From Naematelia aurantialba (lineage: Eukaryota > Basidiomycota > Tremellomycetes > Tremellales > Naemateliaceae): DNA of 64,000 bases. Shown here one piece after another: positions 53,777 through 64,000 of the stretch (positions within the stretch are counted from its first letter, which is position 1; the number at the start of each line of letters is the position of its first letter). The position numbers and the translations under genes were made by a program. Location of the stretch: assembly GCA_021527695.1 (NCBI GenBank), contig JAKFAO010000004.1, positions 1,529,001-1,593,000 of the forward strand. Direction: 5' to 3'. Below the pieces are notes generated by a model. That model did not search any database and was not told the DNA's origin. It was given only the letters and a program-made list of their open reading frames with translations.

Positions 53777-56206
53777 ATGCAGGCCATCACACCCCGTCTC
53801 ATTTTCACCATGGCGGACCCTTCCAATGCTCCGGTCAACCCCGGCACTCTCGCGGAACGAATTGCACAGATTGAACTGGAGACACCTCCTATGTCGCGAA
53901 CCAGCTCGCAGCCGGGCACACCGGGCGGCTTTGCCGTGTTGGATAACGGAACCAACCTCGGCTCAGCTGCAGGTCGCAAGCCGTCTATCGGCGGCCGAGC
54001 GAGCGTCGTCGAGAGGAGGGGCAGTATTCCTGTGGTGACACGCAGCCGGAGGGGTAGTGCAACCATCGTGTCTACCAGCGGAACACAATCCGCTTATCAC
54101 CATCGAACTCATGTAGGTGGCATGTTCACACTGAAACTGTGGCTGAGCCCTTATAGGAAGATGTCGAGTACCCCCATGCGGAAAGGAGTGTGTCCTTGAC
54201 AACATGAAGACAGACCAAGTGCTGACGGGGGGCACAGAAACCATGGCCGATCATCTGAGGAAGTTTGAAAGCCTGCTGACGCGTGGGTCTCATTTTGGAC
54301 CTTCCTTCTGTCGATTTTACTGACAGTTCTGGGTAATTTAGTCACCCCCCAACGGATGAGAATGATCGTACATGCTATTGAAGAGGCACTCGATAAAGGA
54401 TTGCAGAAAGACAACCAGGTCGTCCCTATGAGTGAGTTCCATTGGCACAGATTTGCAGGTCGGAATCAAACTTACTTGTTGTTCTAGTCCCAACTTTTGT
54501 GTTCGGTGTCAGTCACCCGATCGATACCTCTCAAATCTGCTGATGTCATATCAGTACCCTACCGGAGAAGAAGTCGGCGAGTATCTCGCACTAGACTTGG
54601 GAGGCACCAACTTGCGAGTTTGTCTGGTTACTTTGCAAGGGCGCGGGAAGTTCGAGGTGGCGCAGACCAAATACCGCTTAACTGAGGAGCAAAAACAAGA
54701 AGACGGTCAAAAATTGTAAATACCAATCCGTTTACGAGTCATGCTTACACCCTGCCTCCAGGCTGGACTTTTGCGCTGAATGCCTTGATCATTTCATCCG
54801 CGAGAGTCTCGGCCGCACAGAGAAAGACGGCATCCTCCCTCTCGGTTTCACGGTAAGGAGGACGCCGGCTGTGCTTGACATGACTGATGACTTCCCAGTT
54901 CTCATACCCCTGCTCCCAGCGCCGCATTGATCATGGAGGTTAGATTCATTGCAAAACTTTGAAATGCCTCCTACTTATGCTTCGATAGAGCTTATCCGCT
55001 GGACCAAGGGCTTCGGTGCGCCAAACATCGAGGGTCATGATGTGGCCGCTATGTTTGGCACGTCGCTGAAGCGCCTCGTAAGCCTCCATGCGTCATCACT
55101 CTGAGTACTCCAGTTGATTGCTGCAGGGCGTCCCTGCCGAGCTGACCGCCCTCATCAATGACACGACCGGTACGCTTATCGCTTCCAATTATGTCGATCC
55201 CAACGCAAAGATTGCGGTCATCTTTGGAACGGGCTGCAATGCTGCATATATGGAAACCGCCGAGAACATCCCCAAGATGGCGAACCTGGGATTGCCTGCT
55301 GGGCAAGGAATGGCCATCAACGTAAGTGCAGTTGCGGCGAATATATTCACCTAGCTCACCAATGGTAGTGCGAATGGGGAGCGTTTGACTCGTTCGAGCA
55401 CCAGCACCTCCGTAAGTGTCCTCGTGCATATCTACTAAATGTTTTGCTTATGCCTCTTAGCTCGAACAAAGTACGATATCATCATTGATGAATCTTCAAA
55501 CAAGCCAGGAGAGCAGGTCGGTCTGTACTCGTGTTTTCTTCTCTCGTACGCTCATATTGCCAGTCATTTGAGAAGATGATTGCTGGGCTGTATCTCGGCG
55601 AGGTGTTCCGCCTGATTGTATGCGATCTTATTGACTCCGGTGACCTCTTCCTGGGTCAAAATACCTACAAGCTGGAGAAGGCGTATGCGTTCGACACTGC
55701 ATTCCTGTCCTTGATGGAGAGGTGAGTAAAGGCGAGGGCAGTCTTGCAACTTCACTGAACTACGTCAGTGATGTCACCGACGAGCTCCTTACGGTTATTG
55801 GCATCTTCACTCACTTTTTCGGTGTGGAGACGACTATTGAAGAACGGCAATTCTTCAAAAAGCTCGCTGTGCTCATCGGTACCCGAGCCGCTCGCCTGTC
55901 CGCATGCGGTATTGCAGCAATTGTTAGCAAGAAGGGATACCTTGAGGACGGCTGCGCCGTCGGAGCTGATGGTTCTCTGTACAACGTGGGTTCTCTCCTG
56001 TTGTAAGTGCCGCATTGGGTCCTGACTACAGGTAGAAATACCCGAATTTTGCCAATCGTGTGCATCAAGCTCTTGTGGACATATTTGGCGAGAAAGGCAA
56101 GAAAATTGTAACACATCATGCCGAGGATGGGTCAGGCGTGGGAAGTGCTATCATTGCGGCCATGACAAAGAAGAGAAAGGATGATGGATATTTCGTGGAT
56201 TGTTAA
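53777..56206 (+). CDS. HXK: Hexokinase
   Basis: Fifteen exons: 53777-54112, 54157-54187, 54238-54282, 54342-54431, 54488-54507, 54555-54715, 54762-54852, 54899-54938, 54989-55077, 55127-55321, 55369-55411, 55461-55516, 55564-55721, 55769-55985, 56036-56206; 580 aa. Key blocks: IPTFVFGYPTGEE, ALDLGGTN (188-193, phosphate loop), LPLGFTFSYPCSQ, HGELIRWTKGFG (sugar site), NDTTGT with the catalytic Asp, FGTGCNAAYME, GAFDSFE and a C-terminal DGSGVGSAIIAAM. It phosphorylates glucose at position 6. The N-terminus has an extra about 90 residues of Ser/Thr/Arg-rich sequence compared with a typical hexokinase of about 485 aa. A second ATG at 53810 has a stronger context (ACCATGG) and would shorten the protein by 11 residues. 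Confidence 0.95.
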
Positions 56207-56793
56207 GTGCGCCTCAGCTCTTCTTCTTCCGCATGCATGCCTGAGGATCCCAGAGTCGGGTTTCCAAGAGTAGCTACGGTGCAGCCTGATGGACTCGCTG
56301 GTTGGTCACCGCTGGCCCCAGCCTCGTACATTGACATGAGCCTAGCGTGGCTTTCAATCTCCCTGCGAAACTTCCACAACAGAGACAAGACTCAGTTCGC
56401 CTTGCCTTCCGAGCACGATAGGCAGCTGCCTTGGCATGTGGGTTGGGGAGCACTGCTTGTATCGACTGTGCTTGGCAGCTCCGTACGCCAGCGAAGAGAG
56501 GGAAGTCGCGCAGAGGTCTAGCGGGACGACTGGCAAGGTGTCTCTGGCTATCCTTCTTGTCCTGAGTCCTTACCTTCTTGAAAGCCTGGCAAGAGTCGTC
56601 TCGGCTATCTCGGCTCTCCTAGTCGGAGTCCAGAACATGAGGGGCAACATTATTGAGCACATCTGAGTCTAGTCGCCTAGAGATGCCTGAGCTTGAAAGC
56701 ATCTAGGCGTACTGGCCGCTCCGTGCTCTTCCTCACGCGTGGTTGGTGTCCCGGGCCGCCAAAGAAGATCAGAAGCCTTAGCAACAAGCGTAG
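56207..56793. other. 3' flank of the hexokinase, no gene seen
   Basis: About 590 bp up to the first LTR. It contains spurious open frames and an imperfect inverted repeat (CGCCTAGAGATGCCTGAG...AGCATCTAGGCG, near 56675-56710). Confidence 0.4.
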
Positions 56794-57057
56794 TGTCACG
56801 GGCTGTGGTACGGGTTACGGCGGTGGTATACCTGGCGTGGACGAACGGTTTCTATATAGAACGGATGTATACTTGAGATGAGATGCGATACATTCGATGA
56901 GGATATCGAGACAGAGTTGATCTGCTATATACGAGGGACTACGTCACCCTACAGGGACTCATCGAATGGATTACTAAGGGACGGGGCACGTTCGGGGCGA
57001 TACGGGTTCCCTTAGACGATATATCCTAAAAGGGGAAGTGCGATGGATTCCATGACA
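56794..57057 (-). repeat. 3' LTR of element 2
   Basis: 264 bp from TGTCACGGGC to CCATGACA, giving inverted ends TGTCA/TGACA. Directly to its right, read on the minus strand, is a polypurine tract (AAAGGGGGGAGAG) ending at the LTR. That is the place of the plus-strand primer of an LTR element whose sense strand runs leftwards. The partner 5' LTR is not in the window. Confidence 0.65.
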
Positions 57058-57216
57058 CTCTCCCCCCTTTAAAGGACGTCTATAGCGCGAAGAACGAGAC
57101 CGGATTACCGATGAGATTGCCTGCTAAAACGTCGAGTCGATGCTTGAGTGGGACGATATATGCTCGTACTCTTGGTACGCCCCCCCGTCGTCTCTCAAAT
57201 TTGAATCGTTCTCACC

Positions 57217-58219
57217 ATGGCTCCCGTTCGTACTTATGAATTCCAGCTGGTTGGTGGGGTCGTTCTCGCGCCTGTCAAGAACGATCAATATAACGACTTG
57301 ATGGCGAAGTTGGAGGACAAGGTTGAGTCTGTTGCCCATCCCCAACAGTACATGACGGTACAGGCGGCCTTTTATGAGGAAACTCATGCGATCGTGACCG
57401 TTCTCCCTCCTCGAAAGTGTGTGAAGTGCGTGGATGCCTCGGGTGAGTGCATCGTGCCCATACCGAACGAGAATTGGGGGATTGGAGACGTGGTTCGGGA
57501 CAAGGCGCCCGTTCATGGGTAAGTTGTGGTACGATATCACGTATTCTGGAGTACGGTAACCGTGTAGGTGTCTACGGTGTGGAGTGCTGAAGGTGCCTTG
57601 CTCGTTGCGGATCGGTACGCGGACAGGTCGTCGGGGTCGATGGGTTCTGCCGGAGCCCGAAATCGATCAGTCTCTGGCATCTCTGGGTCGGTTCATCAAG
57701 CTGGCCAACGACATGCTGTACTCGCAGTACCGTCCTGAGGACGAGGTTCTCTTGTCTCGCCTGCGAGATGTCAACTTCGTCGTCTCCCGTATTCGAGAGG
57801 CGAAATCTCGTCGACCCCGGGCGAATCCCGAGCCCGTCGGTACGGTTCGCGAGCAGATGTCGGTGCTTTGGCGTGACCTGTTGGCCGTGGCGGAGGCTCC
57901 TCAATCGTCCGTTCCTGCTCCGTCTGTGGTTGGGCCGTCGTCGCCTGTTACGGGTCCCGTAGTGGCATCTACGGTTGTCGGTGGCTCCGGTACGACTGGC
58001 GAGGCCAACGTGACCACGGGGTTCGTTTCGGGGGGTACGGCCGGCTCGTCTTCCGGGCTTCATCTTCGGAGCGGTACTGTGGTTGCTCGCCAGGTCGCGA
58101 GTCAGGCGTCTTCGTTGTCTCCGGCTCCCGAGGCCGTTCGAGCGGCCAAGCGGGCAAGGGTGGTGGACGTGGAGGATGAGGACGAGGAGATGAGTAGGGA
58201 GAGTGAGGAGGTTCAGTAG
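57217..58219 (+). CDS. Accessory protein A: antisense gene in LTR element 2, paired CX2CX6C motifs
   Basis: Exons 57217-57518 and 57568-58219; 317 aa. ATG in good context (ACCATGG). After an N-terminal domain (VRTYEFQLVGGVVLAPV...), two identical-spacing cysteine triplets appear: CVKCVDASGEC and, across the intron, CLRCGVLKVPC. Both are CX2CX6C, like the halves of a Zn2Cys6 binuclear cluster but with a linker of about 27 residues. A helical stretch (EIDQSLASLGRFIKLANDML, LSRLRDVNFVVSRIREAKS) and a Gly/Ser/Val-rich linker follow. The end is basic-then-acidic (AAKRARVVDVEDEDEE). The gene runs rightwards, opposite to the LTR's transcription sense. No family name is known to me. Confidence 0.65.
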
Positions 58220-58421
58220 TAGTGGGTGGTGGTTCTGTGTATGTAATACCATTGGTCTGGGAGCATGTCCCTTCTTGTCGGGCGTCCGTACAAGGTATCG
58301 TGCATCTTGTCGTGTACGGCGCCGTCGTCGCAGTCAATCCTGCGATCCGTAGCTCTGGGTACGGTTTTCCGTGTCTTCCATTCCCGTGACCGTGGGATCT
58401 TCCACGGTGACCCATCCTTTC

Positions 58422-58834
58422 TGTCACGATGCTCCGGTCTAACTTCGGCGACCTGGGACCGCTGCACAACGACTGGCTTGGAAGTGGACGAGTTCCGCGG
58501 GAACTCGTTGAGAGAATGAGGAAAGCCTTGACTTGGGACGGGGACGTGGAGGTGGGGGGACGTGGACTGAGACCTGGGCGATCTAGAAGAACTCAGATGA
58601 GTGGTTGTAGACCCGTCGAAGTTAGAGCGAGATCGTTGGGTCTTGGACTATGGGACTCAATCGAGGATCGCTGAGGAACCTCACTACAATCCGGTAAATT
58701 CTATATACTCTCGTCGAGGCGAGTAGATACTCGCTCAACCTAGACGAGTTCCTCAAGCCCCACGTGACAGCCATGCCGCCATCCCGGTCGCGTGGATAGT
58801 CACGTGACGACTCGACGACGTCTCCGTCATGACA
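58422..58834 (-). repeat. 3' LTR of element 1
   Basis: 413 bp from TGTCACGATG to CCGTCATGACA. To its right on the minus strand stands GGTGGGCAGAG, a polypurine tract, so this is the 3' LTR of the element whose pol lies at 60332-64000. A diverged copy occurs at 23083-23520. The 5 bp left of it (CTTTC) could be the target-site duplication. Confidence 0.75.
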
Positions 58835-59070
58835 CTCTGCCCACCATTATGGTCGAGCTCCTGCGAGACTAGACCATTCCTCCCGTATGCACCACCATGC
58901 ACCATGGCGGCAAGCTATCAGTGGCACTGCCATCGCTGTCGCCGTCGCCATGCTTGCCACGCTCGACTAATCCCGAGAGTCGCCGTAGCGTAGATGGCAC
59001 GGTAACCTGGCGACAGCACAGACCATAAAGGACTCGGCGAGAACGAAACCACTCACCGTAGAACTCCCCA

Positions 59071-59085
59071 TCTCTCTTCTTTCTT

Positions 59086-59147
<62 letters not shown>

Positions 59148-59155
59148 TCTCTGTT
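59071..59155. repeat. (CT)n microsatellite
   Basis: About 85 bp of nearly pure CT dinucleotides with a few CCCT interruptions. It lies 75 bp upstream of the accessory gene B start, where a pyrimidine tract could be part of its promoter. Confidence 0.9.
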
Positions 59156-59229
59156 TCTCGTTCTCTACCACGTCAAATTTTAAGGTAAGACTCACTGACA
59201 CTTAGGTACTATCGACGAAATCTTCAAGG

Positions 59230-60230
59230 ATGCCCGCGACTCGACGAGATGCGTCCCGCCGTGCCAGTACGCAAACTCGTTTTGCTGGTCGGTTCGTCCA
59301 CGCGCACAACATTGCTGTGGTTCCCTACGGCGGCCCACGCCCCGTCGAGGTTGTGGTGGTGGAGGATTCGGATGATGAGATCGAGGAAATTGGGGCCCTA
59401 GGTGAGTACTCGACGAGGACTCACTAACTCGACCAGTTCCTTATGCGTCCGGTCAGAACCGGTTGCAGCCCCGTTCTCCCCCACCGCCCTACCACCAGCG
59501 GCAGCAGCCGCAGCAGCAGCAGCCGTCTCGTTCCGGGCCCACTTGGGCCACCGACAACTCGGACCCAGTCGTTGTGGAAGTCGACGAGATCTTCGACATC
59601 CGGACCCCTGACCACGACTCCTCTACTCTCCCGCCCGGAGAGCCCACTACCCCCACGCCCAACCCCGACAGCTCTGCCCGGGCCCGCCGCCGCAGCCGCA
59701 ACGAGACCAGAACAGATCAGTATATTTTGGTGAGCACTCAACGATTCGTCACAACTCTCAACGAAAATAGAAAGAACTCAGCTAATTCCCAGACTGCCTG
59801 GCCCTCTGCGACTCCTGGCGAGCCGAAATGTGATACTTGTCTGGCCGAATCGCGTACCTGTTGGCGAGTCTCGACTCATGTGAAGTGTTTGACTTGTGCC
59901 TCCAAGTATTGTTCGCTTTACTCTCGACCAAGTCGTCTCTTTCGCCAAGGCTCGGGACCTCCTCAAGCCTCGACGAGTTCTCCTACCTTTTCGACGACTT
60001 CGGGTGTTGCGTTGGGTGCTACTCTCCATGAGCTCTTCTCAGTTGTTGCCCTCGCCCGCCAGAACACGGGCATGACCCGGACCTATATGGTCCAGCGCGC
60101 TCGACGACTGGCGACGTCACTGGGTACGGATCTCGACGAGATCGTTGACGACTTTATTGGCGAGGGTGAGGCAGGTGGGTCTGGCACGGTGGGTGGGTCT
60201 GGTGGGAATACCGGGCCAGGCTCGGAGTGA
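59230..60230 (+). CDS. Accessory protein B: antisense gene in chromovirus element 1 with Cys-rich motif
   Basis: Exons 59230-59401, 59437-59729, 59793-60230; 300 aa. The second intron (59730-59792, 63 nt) keeps frame whether spliced or not; its branch site and acceptor (GCTAATTCCCAG) are good. The N-terminus is Arg/Ala-rich, followed by an acidic VVVVEDSDDEIEE motif and a Gln/Pro-rich linker. Then comes CDTCLAESRTC-X8-CLTCASKYC, i.e. CX2CX6C and CX2CX4C, similar to the triplets of protein A and of Zn2Cys6 clusters. A helical region (ALGATLHELFSVVALARQNT...VQRARRLATSLG) and a Gly-rich end follow. It is convergent with pol, with 101 bp between stop codons. Confidence 0.65.
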
Positions 60231-60331
60231 ATCTAGTCCCTGTAGCCTCTACATGTCTGTATCTTTAGTATTATCAATTAGCATCATCAGTCTGTACATG
60301 GTATATGGATTAGATTCGACGACTCAGCTGG

Positions 60332-63300
60332 TTATGGCCCAGGTTTCTCGGGATGATTCAAGTGGAACGCCTCAATGGTTTCCCGGGCCCCTTCACAATT
60401 CTCAGCCAACTCCCAAGTCACTGCCTCATCTGTTCCTTCATACCCCAACCATTCGACGAGATACTCAAGCTTGCCCCGCCGATTTCGACGAGAGTCAACG
60501 ATTCCTGAGATTTCGAACGAATCGCCCACTTCCTCGTCGATCTCGACAGGTCCTGGTGGTACATAACTTTGCCCTGGGAATTCAGCTGCTCTAAATGGAC
60601 GAAGCAAGGATACATGGAAGACATTGTGAATCTTCATACTCTCTGGAAGACTTAACCTATACGCTCTGGTCCCTACCTTGGCCATAACTCGGTATGGCCC
60701 TCCATATCGGATATCCATTTTCTTCATGGGTCGACGAGTCTTGACGTTTTCCAATGAAAGCATTACCAAATCGTCTACCTTGAAGGTTGGTCCCTCTTGT
60801 CGACGACGGTTATACTGCTTGGCATACTCCTGATTCGCCAACTCGATGTTCCGCTTACACAGGTCGTGAACCTCCGTCAGGGATTTGACCTTTTCGACGA
60901 CTGGTGGAACGTCGCTCTCGAACTCGTCGATTTCCTCGACCCATCGAGCGTTATAGCCGAAATTGGCGAAGAACGGTGACATCTTTATGGTCGAGTGAAT
61001 CGAGTTGTTGTAGGAAAAGGCCGCTCTGGATAGCAGACTCGACCAATTATCTTGATTGTAATCGACGAATACCCTCAAGTATTGCTCAAGGATTTGGTTC
61101 ACTCTCTCAGTCTGCCCATCTGTCTGGGGATGAAACGCAGTAGAGAGACAGACCTTAGTCCCCAATGCTTGATTCATGGCCACCCACAACCTGCTGGTAA
61201 ACTTGGAGCCCCGATCAGAGATGATACTCTTAGGGAAACCATGCTGGGTGACTACGTTGTCGATGACTAAGTCGACGAGTTTGGCGGTCGATAAACGAGT
61301 CGTTGTGGGAACGAATATGGCCCATTTCGTCAACCGGTCGACCACCACTAGGATTGAGTTGTAACCACTCGATTTTGGCAACTCCTCGATGAAATCCATG
61401 GAGATCGACGTCCATGGTCCATCGGCAATCTCCAGGGATTGAAGAAATCCATGGGGACTCTGCCGACTGGGCTTCGTTCGCTGGCACACCGCACACCCAC
61501 GAACGAATCGTTCGACATCTCGTCTAAGTCCAAGCCAACAGTACTCTCTTTGGACCAGTTCCAGCATTTTACTCACTCCCGGGTGGCCAGCCAGGCTTGA
61601 CTCATGGCGAGACTTGAGTATCTTCAACCGCAAGTCTTTATGGTTGGGAATGTATAACCTTCCCCCCACCCGGAGCAAACCTCGCCCCGACTGCTCGACC
61701 TTGGTACCATCTGGCATCCCAAGTCGACGACAGAATCCGGTGAGTCGACGAGTTCCTTCGGTACTCGACGAATCCTCCTCTGACTCGACAACCTCTGTAC
61801 TCAACTCGACTCTCACCTGCTCCAACTCGGGATCCTCATCTACTCCTTCGGCCACATCCTCGATGGATATCAAACCGCCGTCGTCGTCTCCAAGGGAATC
61901 CGCTTCGTGAGTCTCGTCGATGCCCTCGCCATCAACAACGTCCTCGTTGTTCCCATCATCATCAACCACTGTCAACGCTCTAATCATATGGGACAAGGAC
62001 GTTGTAACGGTAGAGGATTCGTTGAGACTCGGGAGGGCTTGGACGAGAGTCTCCTCCTGCTCGGCGAGTGGTCCAGGTTGGTAGTCGGGTCGTCGAGAGA
62101 GAGCATCTGGGTAGGTAGCATGTACCCCTGGACGATAGACAATATTGTAGTCGAATCCCGACAGTAGATCCACCCACCTGGCCTGCCTAGGATTAAGCTG
62201 CCTCGGCTCCATCCAATATGTCAAGTTCAAATGATCCGTGATCACAGTCGACTTGACCTGCATGAGCAGATGGCGCTTTCGACGAAAGGCCATCACGATC
62301 GCCAAGAACTCTTTCTCGGTCACTGTATAGTTAAGCTCAGACCCTTGAAACGCACCAGACTCGATTGCCACTGGATGCTCATGCCCCGTTTCCGAGTTGA
62401 TCTGCGAAATTACGAACCCCCATCCGTATAGGGATGCATCCGCCTGAACGATCGTCTCAAACTCGGGACTGAAGTGGGCGAGTACCGGTGCGGTCGTCAT
62501 GAGTCGTTTGATATCGTCGAATGCTGCCTGCTGTCCCTTTTCCCAGACGAATGGGACGTCCTTGCCTGTCAACTTATGGAGGGGTCCCGCGATCTTGGCA
62601 AAATGAGGGACGAATCGACGATAATAGCTTGCCATCCCCAGGAATCGTCGAACCTGCCGAACCGTTCGAGGTGCCGGGAAGTCGACTATGCCTTGAACAT
62701 ACTCGGAATTCGCTCCCACCCCGTTATTAGACACCACGAAGCCCAAGAATGTCACGCTCTCCTTTTCAAATTCGCACTTGCTGGCTTTCAGGAAGAGCGA
62801 CGTCTTTCTAACAATGTCGAATACTCGTCGAGTGAGATCACGTAACTCGTCGAGTGTCGACGCGTGGATAAGGATATCGTCGATATATATCGTAACTCCT
62901 CGCCCAATAAGATCTCGGAAGACTTCGTTGAGGAAATGTTGGAATACCGCAGGAGCATTCTTGAGACCGTCCCGCACCACCAGTGACTCAAACATTCCCA
63001 ATTGAGTCCTGAACGCTGTAAGATGTTCATTCCCCGGTGCCACCCTCAAGAGTTGGTACGCCCCCACCAAGTCTAACTTGGTGAAATACTTGGATTGGCC
63101 CAATTCGTTGATGATTTGGCTAATCAATGGCAATGGATACGCATCCGGGACGGTTGCCTGATTGAGTCGACGAAAATCGACGACCATTCGACTTCGTCCA
63201 TCTTTCTTGGGGACAAAGAACGTCGGCGATCCATATGGCGAGTTGCTTGGCCTAATTCGTCCAGCAGCCAATTCCCTCTCAATGGTTGATCTCAAAACCT

Positions 63301-64000
63301 CCACCTGAGACGGGTTCAGCTCGTACAATGGCGCCAGACGAAGCTTAGCCTCAGGTTTCAGCGAGAACTTCAAGTCATACTCCCTATGAGGTGGCAAGGT
63401 CTCGGTTCCCCATCTAGGATGGAATATATCAAGGTAACCTTGGTATGTCACGGGAACTTGACTTGTGATCTCGTCTAATTCCTCGGGAGTCAACTCGAGT
63501 TCACCGAAGCTCGGCAACGTCTCTACTCCGACGAAGGATTGGTCGAATTCTGGCGACTCGTCGACTGCACACAGTCGCTCGACGCTTTCCTCTCGATTTC
63601 CTGTAGGAGCGTCACGAGATATCCAACGACTAGGTTGTCTCACCGGTATGCTGTTAGGAAACCTGAGGACTCCTCCAGGAATCCTGACATCCGGGGTCAT
63701 TCCCTCCCTGAACCTGACCTTGGACCTTGAACGATTCGACGACTTGGACTTGAACGCGCTCTTGAGCTCGACGACTCCCTTGATGGAACCGAGCGACTCC
63801 TCGCGTCCCCTGAGCATGGGGGCTGGCTTGGAACTTGACTTGGGACTGGACGTGGACGTGGGCTTGGACATGGAATTGGACGAATCCAATGCTGGGACTG
63901 TGGCGATGGGGGTCTTAGCCTCGGGCATGGGCAAGGGCATGGATTTGCTCGGGGACGATGGTATTTTGACGACTATTGGTTCGTCACTCGACGAAAGCAT
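60332..64000 (-). CDS. Chromovirus Pol polyprotein: RT, RNase H, integrase, chromodomain
   Basis: One open frame of 1222 codons, with an ATG at the window edge; the true start may lie beyond. The N-terminal 150 residues are Ser/Pro/Lys-rich. RT about 240-430 with YIDD at 372-375; RNase H about 515-640 with Asp521 and TDH (588-590); an acidic linker about 676-745; the integrase HHCC zinc finger (His799, His806, Cys836, Cys839) and DDE core (Asp869, Asp929, Glu965). A chromodomain at about 1162-1215 (LEYLVEWLGYEGTDEAVTWE) may steer integration to marked chromatin. No protease motif was found in the visible part. The gene is intact and without stops. Confidence 0.93.
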   Translation of the reverse strand: MLSSSDEPIVVKIPSSPSKSMPLPMPEAKTPIATVPALDSSNSMSKPTSTSSPKSSSKPAPMLRGREESLGSIKGVVELKSAFKSKSSNRSRSKVRFREGMTPDVRIPGGVLRFPNSIPVRQPSRWISRDAPTGNREESVERLCAVDESPEFDQSFVGVETLPSFGELELTPEELDEITSQVPVTYQGYLDIFHPRWGTETLPPHREYDLKFSLKPEAKLRLAPLYELNPSQVEVLRSTIERELAAGRIRPSNSPYGSPTFFVPKKDGRSRMVVDFRRLNQATVPDAYPLPLISQIINELGQSKYFTKLDLVGAYQLLRVAPGNEHLTAFRTQLGMFESLVVRDGLKNAPAVFQHFLNEVFRDLIGRGVTIYIDDILIHASTLDELRDLTRRVFDIVRKTSLFLKASKCEFEKESVTFLGFVVSNNGVGANSEYVQGIVDFPAPRTVRQVRRFLGMASYYRRFVPHFAKIAGPLHKLTGKDVPFVWEKGQQAAFDDIKRLMTTAPVLAHFSPEFETIVQADASLYGWGFVISQINSETGHEHPVAIESGAFQGSELNYTVTEKEFLAIVMAFRRKRHLLMQVKSTVITDHLNLTYWMEPRQLNPRQARWVDLLSGFDYNIVYRPGVHATYPDALSRRPDYQPGPLAEQEETLVQALPSLNESSTVTTSLSHMIRALTVVDDDGNNEDVVDGEGIDETHEADSLGDDDGGLISIEDVAEGVDEDPELEQVRVELSTEVVESEEDSSSTEGTRRLTGFCRRLGMPDGTKVEQSGRGLLRVGGRLYIPNHKDLRLKILKSRHESSLAGHPGVSKMLELVQREYCWLGLRRDVERFVRGCAVCQRTKPSRQSPHGFLQSLEIADGPWTSISMDFIEELPKSSGYNSILVVVDRLTKWAIFVPTTTRLSTAKLVDLVIDNVVTQHGFPKSIISDRGSKFTSRLWVAMNQALGTKVCLSTAFHPQTDGQTERVNQILEQYLRVFVDYNQDNWSSLLSRAAFSYNNSIHSTIKMSPFFANFGYNARWVEEIDEFESDVPPVVEKVKSLTEVHDLCKRNIELANQEYAKQYNRRRQEGPTFKVDDLVMLSLENVKTRRPMKKMDIRYGGPYRVMAKVGTRAYRLSLPESMKIHNVFHVSLLRPFRAAEFPGQSYVPPGPVEIDEEVGDSFEISGIVDSRRNRRGKLEYLVEWLGYEGTDEAVTWELAENCEGARETIEAFHLNHPEKPGP

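Follow-up and report, generated by a model that had tools for sequence, protein, structure and literature searches.

We analysed a 64,000-nucleotide stretch of Naematelia aurantialba DNA (hereafter the window; C10:1529001-1593000 of a 21.0-Mb, 15-contig eukaryotic genome, the one genome covered by the whole analysis), whose right-hand part carries two long terminal repeat (LTR) retrotransposons, elements A and B, each with a gene on the strand opposite to its polyprotein. Genes of this kind, encoding proteins with paired cysteine triplets, were found in three element families, and each of these families is loaded with short symmetric DNA words of its own, which the antisense proteins probably bind. 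From position 56794 onward, the window holds two LTR units, both leftward. The 3' LTR of element A (56794-57057, minus strand, 264 bp, with the ends TGTCAC...TGACA) has matching LTRs flanking other A copies, and 5-bp target-site duplications were seen in both of the two A copies checked. The 3' LTR of element B (58422-58834, minus strand, 413 bp) has the same ends, and the LTRs of B are 100% identical to each other. The target-site duplication CTTTC (58417-58421) marks the insertion of element B into element A, whose sequence resumes past B; of the two LTR units described by the initial annotation, both are present, but their arrangement is nested. The window copy of element A is damaged, with A bases 39-1190 gone and two solo B-type LTRs inside it; another A copy (locus L038) has both LTRs and a single open frame of 1662 codons. 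The element B polyprotein (60332-64000, minus strand), with reverse transcriptase, RNase H, integrase and chromodomain, extends past the window end (C10:1593001 and beyond). Pfam chromodomain matches stand at the pol end of the polyproteins of B (2.5e-9) and of a third family, C (2.7e-13), whereas the Pfam search gave no Chromo match in the 1662-aa A polyprotein; hence, of the two units initially termed chromovirus-type, the term is shown to apply to B only. By eye, a pyrimidine tract adjoins both LTR-A and LTR-B, and the described order of an LTR of 264 or 413 bp, the adjoining tract and then a rightward gene is borne out in both units.

Gene A (57217-58219, rightward, 317 aa) has two exons, 57217-57518 and 57568-58219, separated by a 49-bp GT-AG intron (57519-57567, plus strand) whose position is conserved in a diverged relative, A'. 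The first cysteine triplet, C68-X2-C71-X6-C78, lies in exon 1 (about 57418-57450), and the second, C102-X2-C105-X6-C112, in exon 2 (57569-57601), which also encodes a basic TGRRGRW stretch, predicted helices and a low-complexity tail. Gene B (59230-60230, rightward, 300 aa) has three exons (59230-59401, 59437-59729 and 59793-60230, plus strand) and two introns, of 35 bp (59402-59436) and 63 bp (59730-59792). Its third exon encodes the pattern CX2CX6CX8CX2CX4C (59829-59912) followed by three predicted helices. The gene is convergent with pol, and the 101 bp between the two stops is the distance initially reported. Introns had likewise been noted in both genes and were confirmed in both, one in A and two in B, while the family C gene found here has none; introns can persist in antisense genes because the retrotransposed RNA is the other strand. 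The single-sequence structure model of gene A exon 2 has a mean predicted local distance difference test score (pLDDT) of 48.7 and the single-exon model of gene B one of 56.3, with a block of 69-86 over exon residues 71-120 and values below 50 in the cysteine part. These single-exon models are poor, and the helices after the B cysteine cluster are the sole part of them predicted with moderate confidence. The pyrimidine-rich stretch between LTR-B and gene B (58835-59229, plus strand) is a probable promoter and 5' untranslated region. A long (CT)n tract lies in the same interval (59081-59150) and is perhaps part of an antisense promoter.

The antisense genes belong to the elements. Searched as DNA against the genome, gene A is matched in full at six places, in two rows at a seventh that a solo LTR interrupts, and in diverged form at one more; for gene B, there are 13 full and two partial matches. 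Protein searches added only A', the cut C gene of an element D and one chance-level row (E 0.68). Family C, present near 533 kb of C11 as two tandem copies, has an antisense, intronless, convergent gene of 194 aa whose stop lies 77 bp from the pol stop. When reverse transcriptase positions were taken from the RVT_1 match list, which gives a lower bound, an opposite-strand reverse transcriptase was found in the expected place for 12 of 13 full B genes, six of seven A genes and both C genes. In the window A copy, the reverse transcriptase is farther off because B lies between. The exceptions are one B gene near a contig end and one A copy on C1. Homologues lying mostly in single-copy host loci, the outcome that the initial annotation had set against its own proposal, are not what this genome holds, as 20 of the 22 copies stand with an opposite-strand reverse transcriptase instead. 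All 13 full B genes and all six uninterrupted A genes have open frames.

The A and B proteins had been described as not being close copies, and BLASTP indeed detected no significant similarity between them. Neither protein has a Pfam match at E values up to 1, and no basic leucine zipper (bZIP) match was found for them in Pfam. The paired cysteine triplets noted in both are real, as the half-motif CX2CX4-7CS is rare in a six-frame control: it is absent from the 113,396 residues obtained by translating the leading 56.7 kb of the window in all six frames, and across the window and eight loci it was found only once outside these genes, the other occurrences being in A (two copies), A', B and C. 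In five further loci, the full or half pattern turned up at three sites with no relation to the genes, including a tandem repeat. The strongest match to a known class comes from gene C, whose motif CX2CX6CX8CX2CX6C has the exact spacing of Zn2Cys6 clusters (PF00172, CX2CX6CX5-12CX2CX6-8C). Gene C gives a sub-threshold match to Pfam Zn_clus (11.3 bits against a cut-off of 21, covering positions 2-37 of 39), and in a sequence search of the PDB it matched LEU3 (E 0.036) and LAC9 (E 0.99), both behind an unrelated protelomerase at 0.017. In a three-sequence BLASTP comparison, B and C align over 34 residues of the cysteine region with E values of 0.001-0.002.

A' (locus L036, 3370-4735; C15:69.87-71.24 kb) is a diverged gene A near 70 kb of C15. 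It adjoins a diverged LTR-A fragment, is open over 319 aa and has its intron at the same position as gene A. No pol was detectable in 9 kb at this locus, and A' may be the last remnant of an element or a gene taken over by the host. Between A and A', the ratio of non-synonymous to synonymous substitution rates (dN/dS) is 0.43 (bootstrap 0.31-0.57), against 0.58-1.58 in the other five frames; by region, it is about 0.3 over the first two thirds, rising to 0.81 in the tail. Among the A copies, there are 17 synonymous and eight non-synonymous single changes, with two multi-change codons excluded. By these codon comparisons, gene A is under purifying selection. A third open reading frame (ORF) on the sense strand opposite gene A was considered and rejected: the opposite-strand frames contain 1-16 stops per sequence over the aligned codons and have dN/dS values of 0.58-1.53.

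Each gene-bearing family also has short words that are dense in its own DNA and scarce elsewhere. We compared word density in 12 elements and in 56.7 kb of the window, most of the other controls not being close relatives of A-C. TACGG occurs at 8.2 per kb in A and at no more than 1.4 per kb in the other 11 elements, TCGACGA at 6.9 per kb in B and no more than 1.0 in the other 11, and TCGAA at 18.8 per kb in C and 17.4 in D, against no more than 4.0 in the other ten. The words sit in LTRs, antisense gene and gag-pol, on both strands (TACGG in A, 26 and 30), with none in the gap between gene A and its LTR; in B, their density is 4.8 per kb in the LTRs and 7.3-7.9 in pol. Early nulls were a trinucleotide Markov model and a comparison with host DNA. 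The host comparison was uninformative for the G-rich elements (H and L048-L051), and we therefore changed to synonymous-codon shuffles and then to shuffles that also keep dinucleotides. With synonymous-codon shuffles, the best 5-mers reached z-scores of 6.6 in A, 8.5 in B, 6.5 in C and 6.1 in D, compared with 3.8-4.8 in seven gene-less elements; in gene-less L048, which has one repeat pair, 7-mers reached 7.6. Under the strict null, which keeps protein, codon usage and dinucleotides, the B 7-mer stood at 10.8 (null maximum 5.1, from 120 shuffles) and the A word at 4.9 (4.3). Neighbours with one mismatch are less enriched than the word itself, all of them for B and most for A.

The words combine into symmetric pairs with a spacer that is characteristic of each family. 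In a scan of triplet pairs, CGT-N10-ACG was the best in A (24 against 3.9 expected) with CCG-N12-CGG third (18 against 2.7), TCG-N1-CGA the best in B (56 against 8.2), and CGA-N6-TCG the second in C (28 against 10.3), behind CAG-N21-CTG (6 against 0.5); the C dyad was picked after the scan results were seen. Controls, namely E, F, L050, L046 and four host stretches, had z-scores of at most 4.4. A 4-mer pair scan in B was topped by its CT tract. With up to one mismatch, the A dyad CCGTA-N8-TACGG has 14 sites at spacer 8 and 0-5 at every other spacer in the range 0-29; A is rich in the direct pair TACGG-N16-TACGG as well (15). When the test was confined to ORFs, with 200 shuffles under the strict null (protein, codon usage and dinucleotides kept), TCG-N1-CGA of B occurs 44 times (null maximum 22), while in A CGT-N10-ACG occurs 19 times (12), CCG-N12-CGG 14 times (11) and CCGTA-N8-TACGG with up to one mismatch 11 times (6). 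The diverged A' keeps the A dyad in its 1.4 kb, with two sites against 0.03 expected at up to one mismatch and five against 0.74 at up to two, neither being reached in any of 100 shuffles; at three mismatches it has ten against 5.95 (4 of 100 shuffles), and spacer 13 also gives five at two mismatches. Of the eight TACGG sites in gene A, three coincide in the alignment with sites of A'. In the window, two dyads of this type with one mismatch start at 57539 and 57560, 21 bp apart (57539-57577), and exact dyads lie at 57957-57974, within gene A, and at 58347-58364. Element B contributes 38 TCG[A/T]CGA sites between 58422 and 64000, for example at 59212, 59241, 59410, 59970, 59991, 60101, 60133, 61724, 61745, 61765, 62825, 62847 and 62877. 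As a separate observation, L051 (C14:512.0-518.5 kb), a reverse transcriptase element for which no LTRs were found, has an unexplained symmetric pair, TGC-N7-GCA (12 against 2.4 expected).

In families B and C, the sites are also spaced by the helical repeat. Among the 23 B site distances of up to 66 bp, 20 fall at 10-12, 19-22, 29-32 or 41-43 bp and the other three at 49, 52 and 55 bp. The best period in the 5-20 bp range is 10.50 for B and likewise 10.50 for C (252 pairs), a result given by none of 2000 jittered sets for either family. No such period was found for host TCGA, B GATC, B CTCG, E TCGA or A TCGA. In C, GAAT/ATTC, which overlaps the context of the C word, is phased too, and AATT/ATAT weakly so (49 of 2000); in D, phased ATG-CAT was also seen. 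When the word was not chosen beforehand, the best-phased 4-mer fell within the family word in all of A-D, scoring 3.6 in A, 2.9 in B, 6.7 in C and 5.4 in D, against best scores of 1.0-2.8 in eight other elements and four host stretches. As 10.5 bp is the turn of double-stranded DNA, this spacing favours DNA binding on one face. The proposal of the initial annotation that the products might be DNA-binding regulators is, at the level of sequence, supported by family-specific symmetric sites throughout the elements, phased in B and C.

Several further elements and features were recorded in the course of this work. Element D (L042, 425-6760; C15:929.4-935.8 kb), a relative of C with LTRs that are 100% identical, derives from C and was not treated as an independent family. 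E and F form one family (99% in pol), which among the compared elements is the nearest to C (60% in pol); it shows neither such a family word nor helical spacing, and its scanned loci contain no paired-cysteine motif. An antisense ORF is present in F (L045, 4882-5904; C3:889.4-890.4 kb) but lacks paired cysteine triplets; it stops 19 bp from the stop of pol and has one near-full second copy (C5) and partial copies. The 3' LTR of F was not found. In element E (L043, 2046-7468), CTCTAGA occurs 16 times against 0.9 expected, both LTRs counted; it is absent from the top words of the E ORF shuffles and so lies mainly outside the tested ORFs. Solo B-type LTRs lie within or beside other retroelements (L034, 3444-3855 and 5445-5856; L039, L040, L044 and L051), and element B may prefer element-rich chromatin. 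To the left of the two units, a multi-exon gene (window 53800-56210, plus strand), hexokinase-like by eye (LDLGGTNLRV), ends about 0.6 kb from LTR-A. TTAGGGGG-like repeats are present at two contig ends of the genome, and end repeats of this type are typical of Cryptococcus and its relatives.

In each of the three families, a single gene of this kind occurs together with a single dyad whose spacer is particular to the family, and the simplest reading is that the antisense gene reads the address of its family. We consider it probable, on balance, that the Ty3-type families A, B and C carry an antisense gene for a family-specific, dimeric, zinc-cluster-like protein that binds the selected dyads of its own family, most likely in opposition to silencing. 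The gene would be read from the 3' LTR side toward pol, and the paired cysteine triplets of its product, with the helices that follow, would bind paired CG triplets as a dimer, the region after the cysteine cluster setting the spacer of the bound site: CCGTA-N8-TACGG for A, TCG-N1-CGA for B and CGA-N6-TCG for C. Selection would have built such sites along the whole length of the family's own DNA, coding sequence included, and helical spacing in B and C would let many dimers bind in a row along the same side of the double helix. The density of sites along the element would let even a weakly specific protein find the family copies, so that it recognises all of them and little else, and the chromatin of the family would be kept open against host silencing, a function like that of the VANC proteins discussed below. 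Antisense transcription, dimerisation, dyad binding and the anti-silencing outcome are what we infer from the genes themselves, their position and intactness, the selection on A, the family-specific dyads in excess of strict nulls (narrowly for C) and the phasing in B and C. Matches to Piwi and DNA methylases above the Pfam cut-offs are present in the genome, which makes silencing by such routes plausible as far as sequence matches can indicate. A stronger form of the proposal, which we hold only tentatively, is that each family writes a private symmetric address into its own genes by synonymous change and that the antisense dimeric factor reads it and protects all copies. The address would lie on one helix face in at least two families, and the system would be a convergent retrotransposon counterpart of VANC with its address in coding sequence.

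A number of results weigh against this proposal. At the protein level, 23 residues separate the A triplets (C78 to C102) and the second half of the B motif is CX2CX4C, neither of which has strict Zn2Cys6 spacing; none of the three proteins exceeds the Pfam cut-off, A and B being without any Zn_clus match, and hhalign of A/A' with B or C, which aligned the cysteine residues, was not significant (P 0.09-0.11). The earlier claim of a selected accessory gene stands for A, whose dN/dS is not near 1, but not for the young B copies, in which three synonymous and nine non-synonymous changes leave purifying selection invisible. Element D has lost all but the final 58 residues of its antisense gene despite its identical LTRs, which implies recent mobility without need for an intact copy of its own; D may be served by C in trans. 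Under the strict word null, the C word ties the maximum (4.5 against 4.5), and CGAAA of D, at 4.0, falls below its maximum of 4.5, the best D 5-mer being CCTAG at 4.8. Some gene-less elements exceed their own maxima, namely L049 and L050 with 5-mers at 5.2 and 4.2 (maxima 3.9) and L048 with a 6-mer at 5.2 (4.2); L049 has 7-mers up to 7.0 and internal repeats, while the excess in L050 is without explanation. Gene-less elements likewise reached high z-scores in the triplet-pair scan (L048 12.3, L049 6.9, H 6.0 and L051 5.9), for which G-runs in H and repeats in L049 are likely causes and repeats in L048 a probable one. In the dyad null, the exact A dyad only ties (4 against 4) and CGA-N6-TCG of C is marginal (16 against a maximum of 14), and the C pairs TCGA-N6-TCGA (5 against 7) and TCG-N7-TCG (12 against 13) do not exceed their maxima. 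With respect to phasing, the exact sites of A show no phasing (479, 747 and 487 of 2000), the plain 4-mer score of B, 2.9, is barely above the best control at 2.8, and in C ORFs alone the spacing is not significant (33 of 120 at 10-11 bp and 10 of 120 at 20-22 bp), indicating that the C phasing comes largely from non-coding DNA.

Other functions for a dyad-binding antisense protein would draw on much of the same evidence. It could repress its own family as a form of copy-number control, covering the element and its LTR promoter and limiting sense transcription. The family words, the strict nulls and the phasing apply here as well, the convergent antisense arrangement would suit self-limitation, and D, which lost most of the gene, has identical LTRs and so transposed recently. 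Yet the sites extend across coding DNA and show no concentration in the LTRs, as the lower LTR density in B indicates, and selection among copies in one genome does not obviously favour a self-repressor; we regard self-repression as unlikely. More doubtful is a role in tethering, in which the protein would link cDNA or integrase to older family copies and so steer insertion to element-rich safe sites. Dense sites would turn old copies into landing pads, and B-type LTRs do lie in or beside other elements at several loci, but the B insertion in the window hit an A element, which is poor in B words (0.88 per kb), and the chromodomains of B and C could already supply targeting. Anti-silencing is preferred over both because the sites cover the whole element.

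The words could also have nothing to do with a binding protein. That they reflect a mutation or composition bias of each family, the antisense genes serving another function, would fit the broad richness of C in TCGA and CGAA, the part of the A and C signal that dinucleotides absorb, and the enriched words or pairs of some gene-less elements. The words are private, however, although all families share one nucleus, and such a bias would not be expected to yield a preferred spacer of 8 in A, a preference for particular letters in A and B or a helical period in B and C; we judge it to be a rather unlikely explanation. It is highly improbable that the words serve the sense transcript as RNA, in packaging or structure, and are unrelated to the antisense gene: CCGTA-N8-TACGG is able to form an RNA hairpin, but TCG-N1-CGA is not, TACGG is about equally frequent on both strands, and the 10.5-bp period is the repeat of double-stranded DNA. 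Finally, the antisense frames might be captured host genes or chance frames without function for the element, as the lack of visible purifying selection among young B copies could suggest. Against this stand the paired cysteine triplets at the same place in three otherwise dissimilar proteins, the conserved intron position and low dN/dS of A, and the finding of no host homologue in this genome apart from the A' remnant, and we give this explanation scarcely any credence.

If the anti-silencing proposal is true, the coding sequence of a parasite is under selection partly as an address for a binding protein, and a single genome is enough to read that address directly. The proposal would also offer a concrete, testable explanation of how individual retrotransposon families evade silencing, with anti-silencing evolving in LTR retrotransposons, and families A, B and C would supply three ready-made pairs of factor and site with known spacers.

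Among known proteins, fungal Zn2Cys6 factors of the Gal4/Leu3 type resemble the antisense products in their paired cysteine triplets, with exact spacing in C, and in the basic stretch and helices after the cluster. Gal4 and Leu3 recognise paired CG-containing triplets with a protein-specific spacer that is set by the region after the cluster. In contrast to these factors, A and B deviate in spacing, the Pfam cut-off is not reached, and the genes are encoded by retrotransposons. Antisense genes of LTR retroelements include HBZ of human T-cell leukemia virus type 1 (HTLV-1), which encodes a bZIP protein, and antisense ORFs of plant LTR retrotransposons. These antisense genes are, like the ones described here, read from the side of the 3' LTR; no bZIP match was found here, and we know of no family-specific site code in the element for HBZ or the plant antisense ORFs.

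Bdelloid rotifer LTR retrotransposons carry, as here, a family-specific extra ORF (ORF3), for which the consulted part of the report describes neither an antisense gene nor a zinc cluster (PMC5408684). Two surveys of LTR elements in fungi (PMC2864245, PMC3248453) use neither "antisense" nor "zinc" in their main text, and in titles and the opening parts of abstracts we found no description of an antisense zinc-cluster gene in fungal LTR elements, the original Tcn papers lying outside that search, or of anti-silencing by fungal LTR retrotransposons of this kind. Fungal transposons that encode TET/JBP dioxygenases are mobile elements with a likely anti-silencing gene, according to the portion of that work drawn on here (PMC12730594); they share with A-C the combination of a fungal mobile element and such a gene, but they are DNA transposons and their cargo is an enzyme. 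The closest counterpart is VANC of Arabidopsis VANDALs, Mutator-like DNA transposons, an element-encoded anti-silencing factor (PMC5735166, PMC10398659, in the sections considered), and VANC21 is reported to find the copies of its family through the density of many sites along the element (PMC5735166). In those sections, the likeness extends to an element-encoded accessory gene and to a short motif that is dense in its own family, rare in others and different between family members. VANDAL motifs, however, are described there as mainly non-coding tandem repeats in one orientation, while the dyads of A, B and C are dispersed through coding DNA. Likewise, anti-silencing has been demonstrated for VANC, whereas for A, B and C we propose it from the features above. 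VANDALs are DNA transposons, and A, B and C are LTR retrotransposons with an antisense gene of paired cysteine triplets and, in B and C, phased sites; the loading of gene-bearing elements, coding DNA included, with family-private symmetric dyads is new in this analysis.

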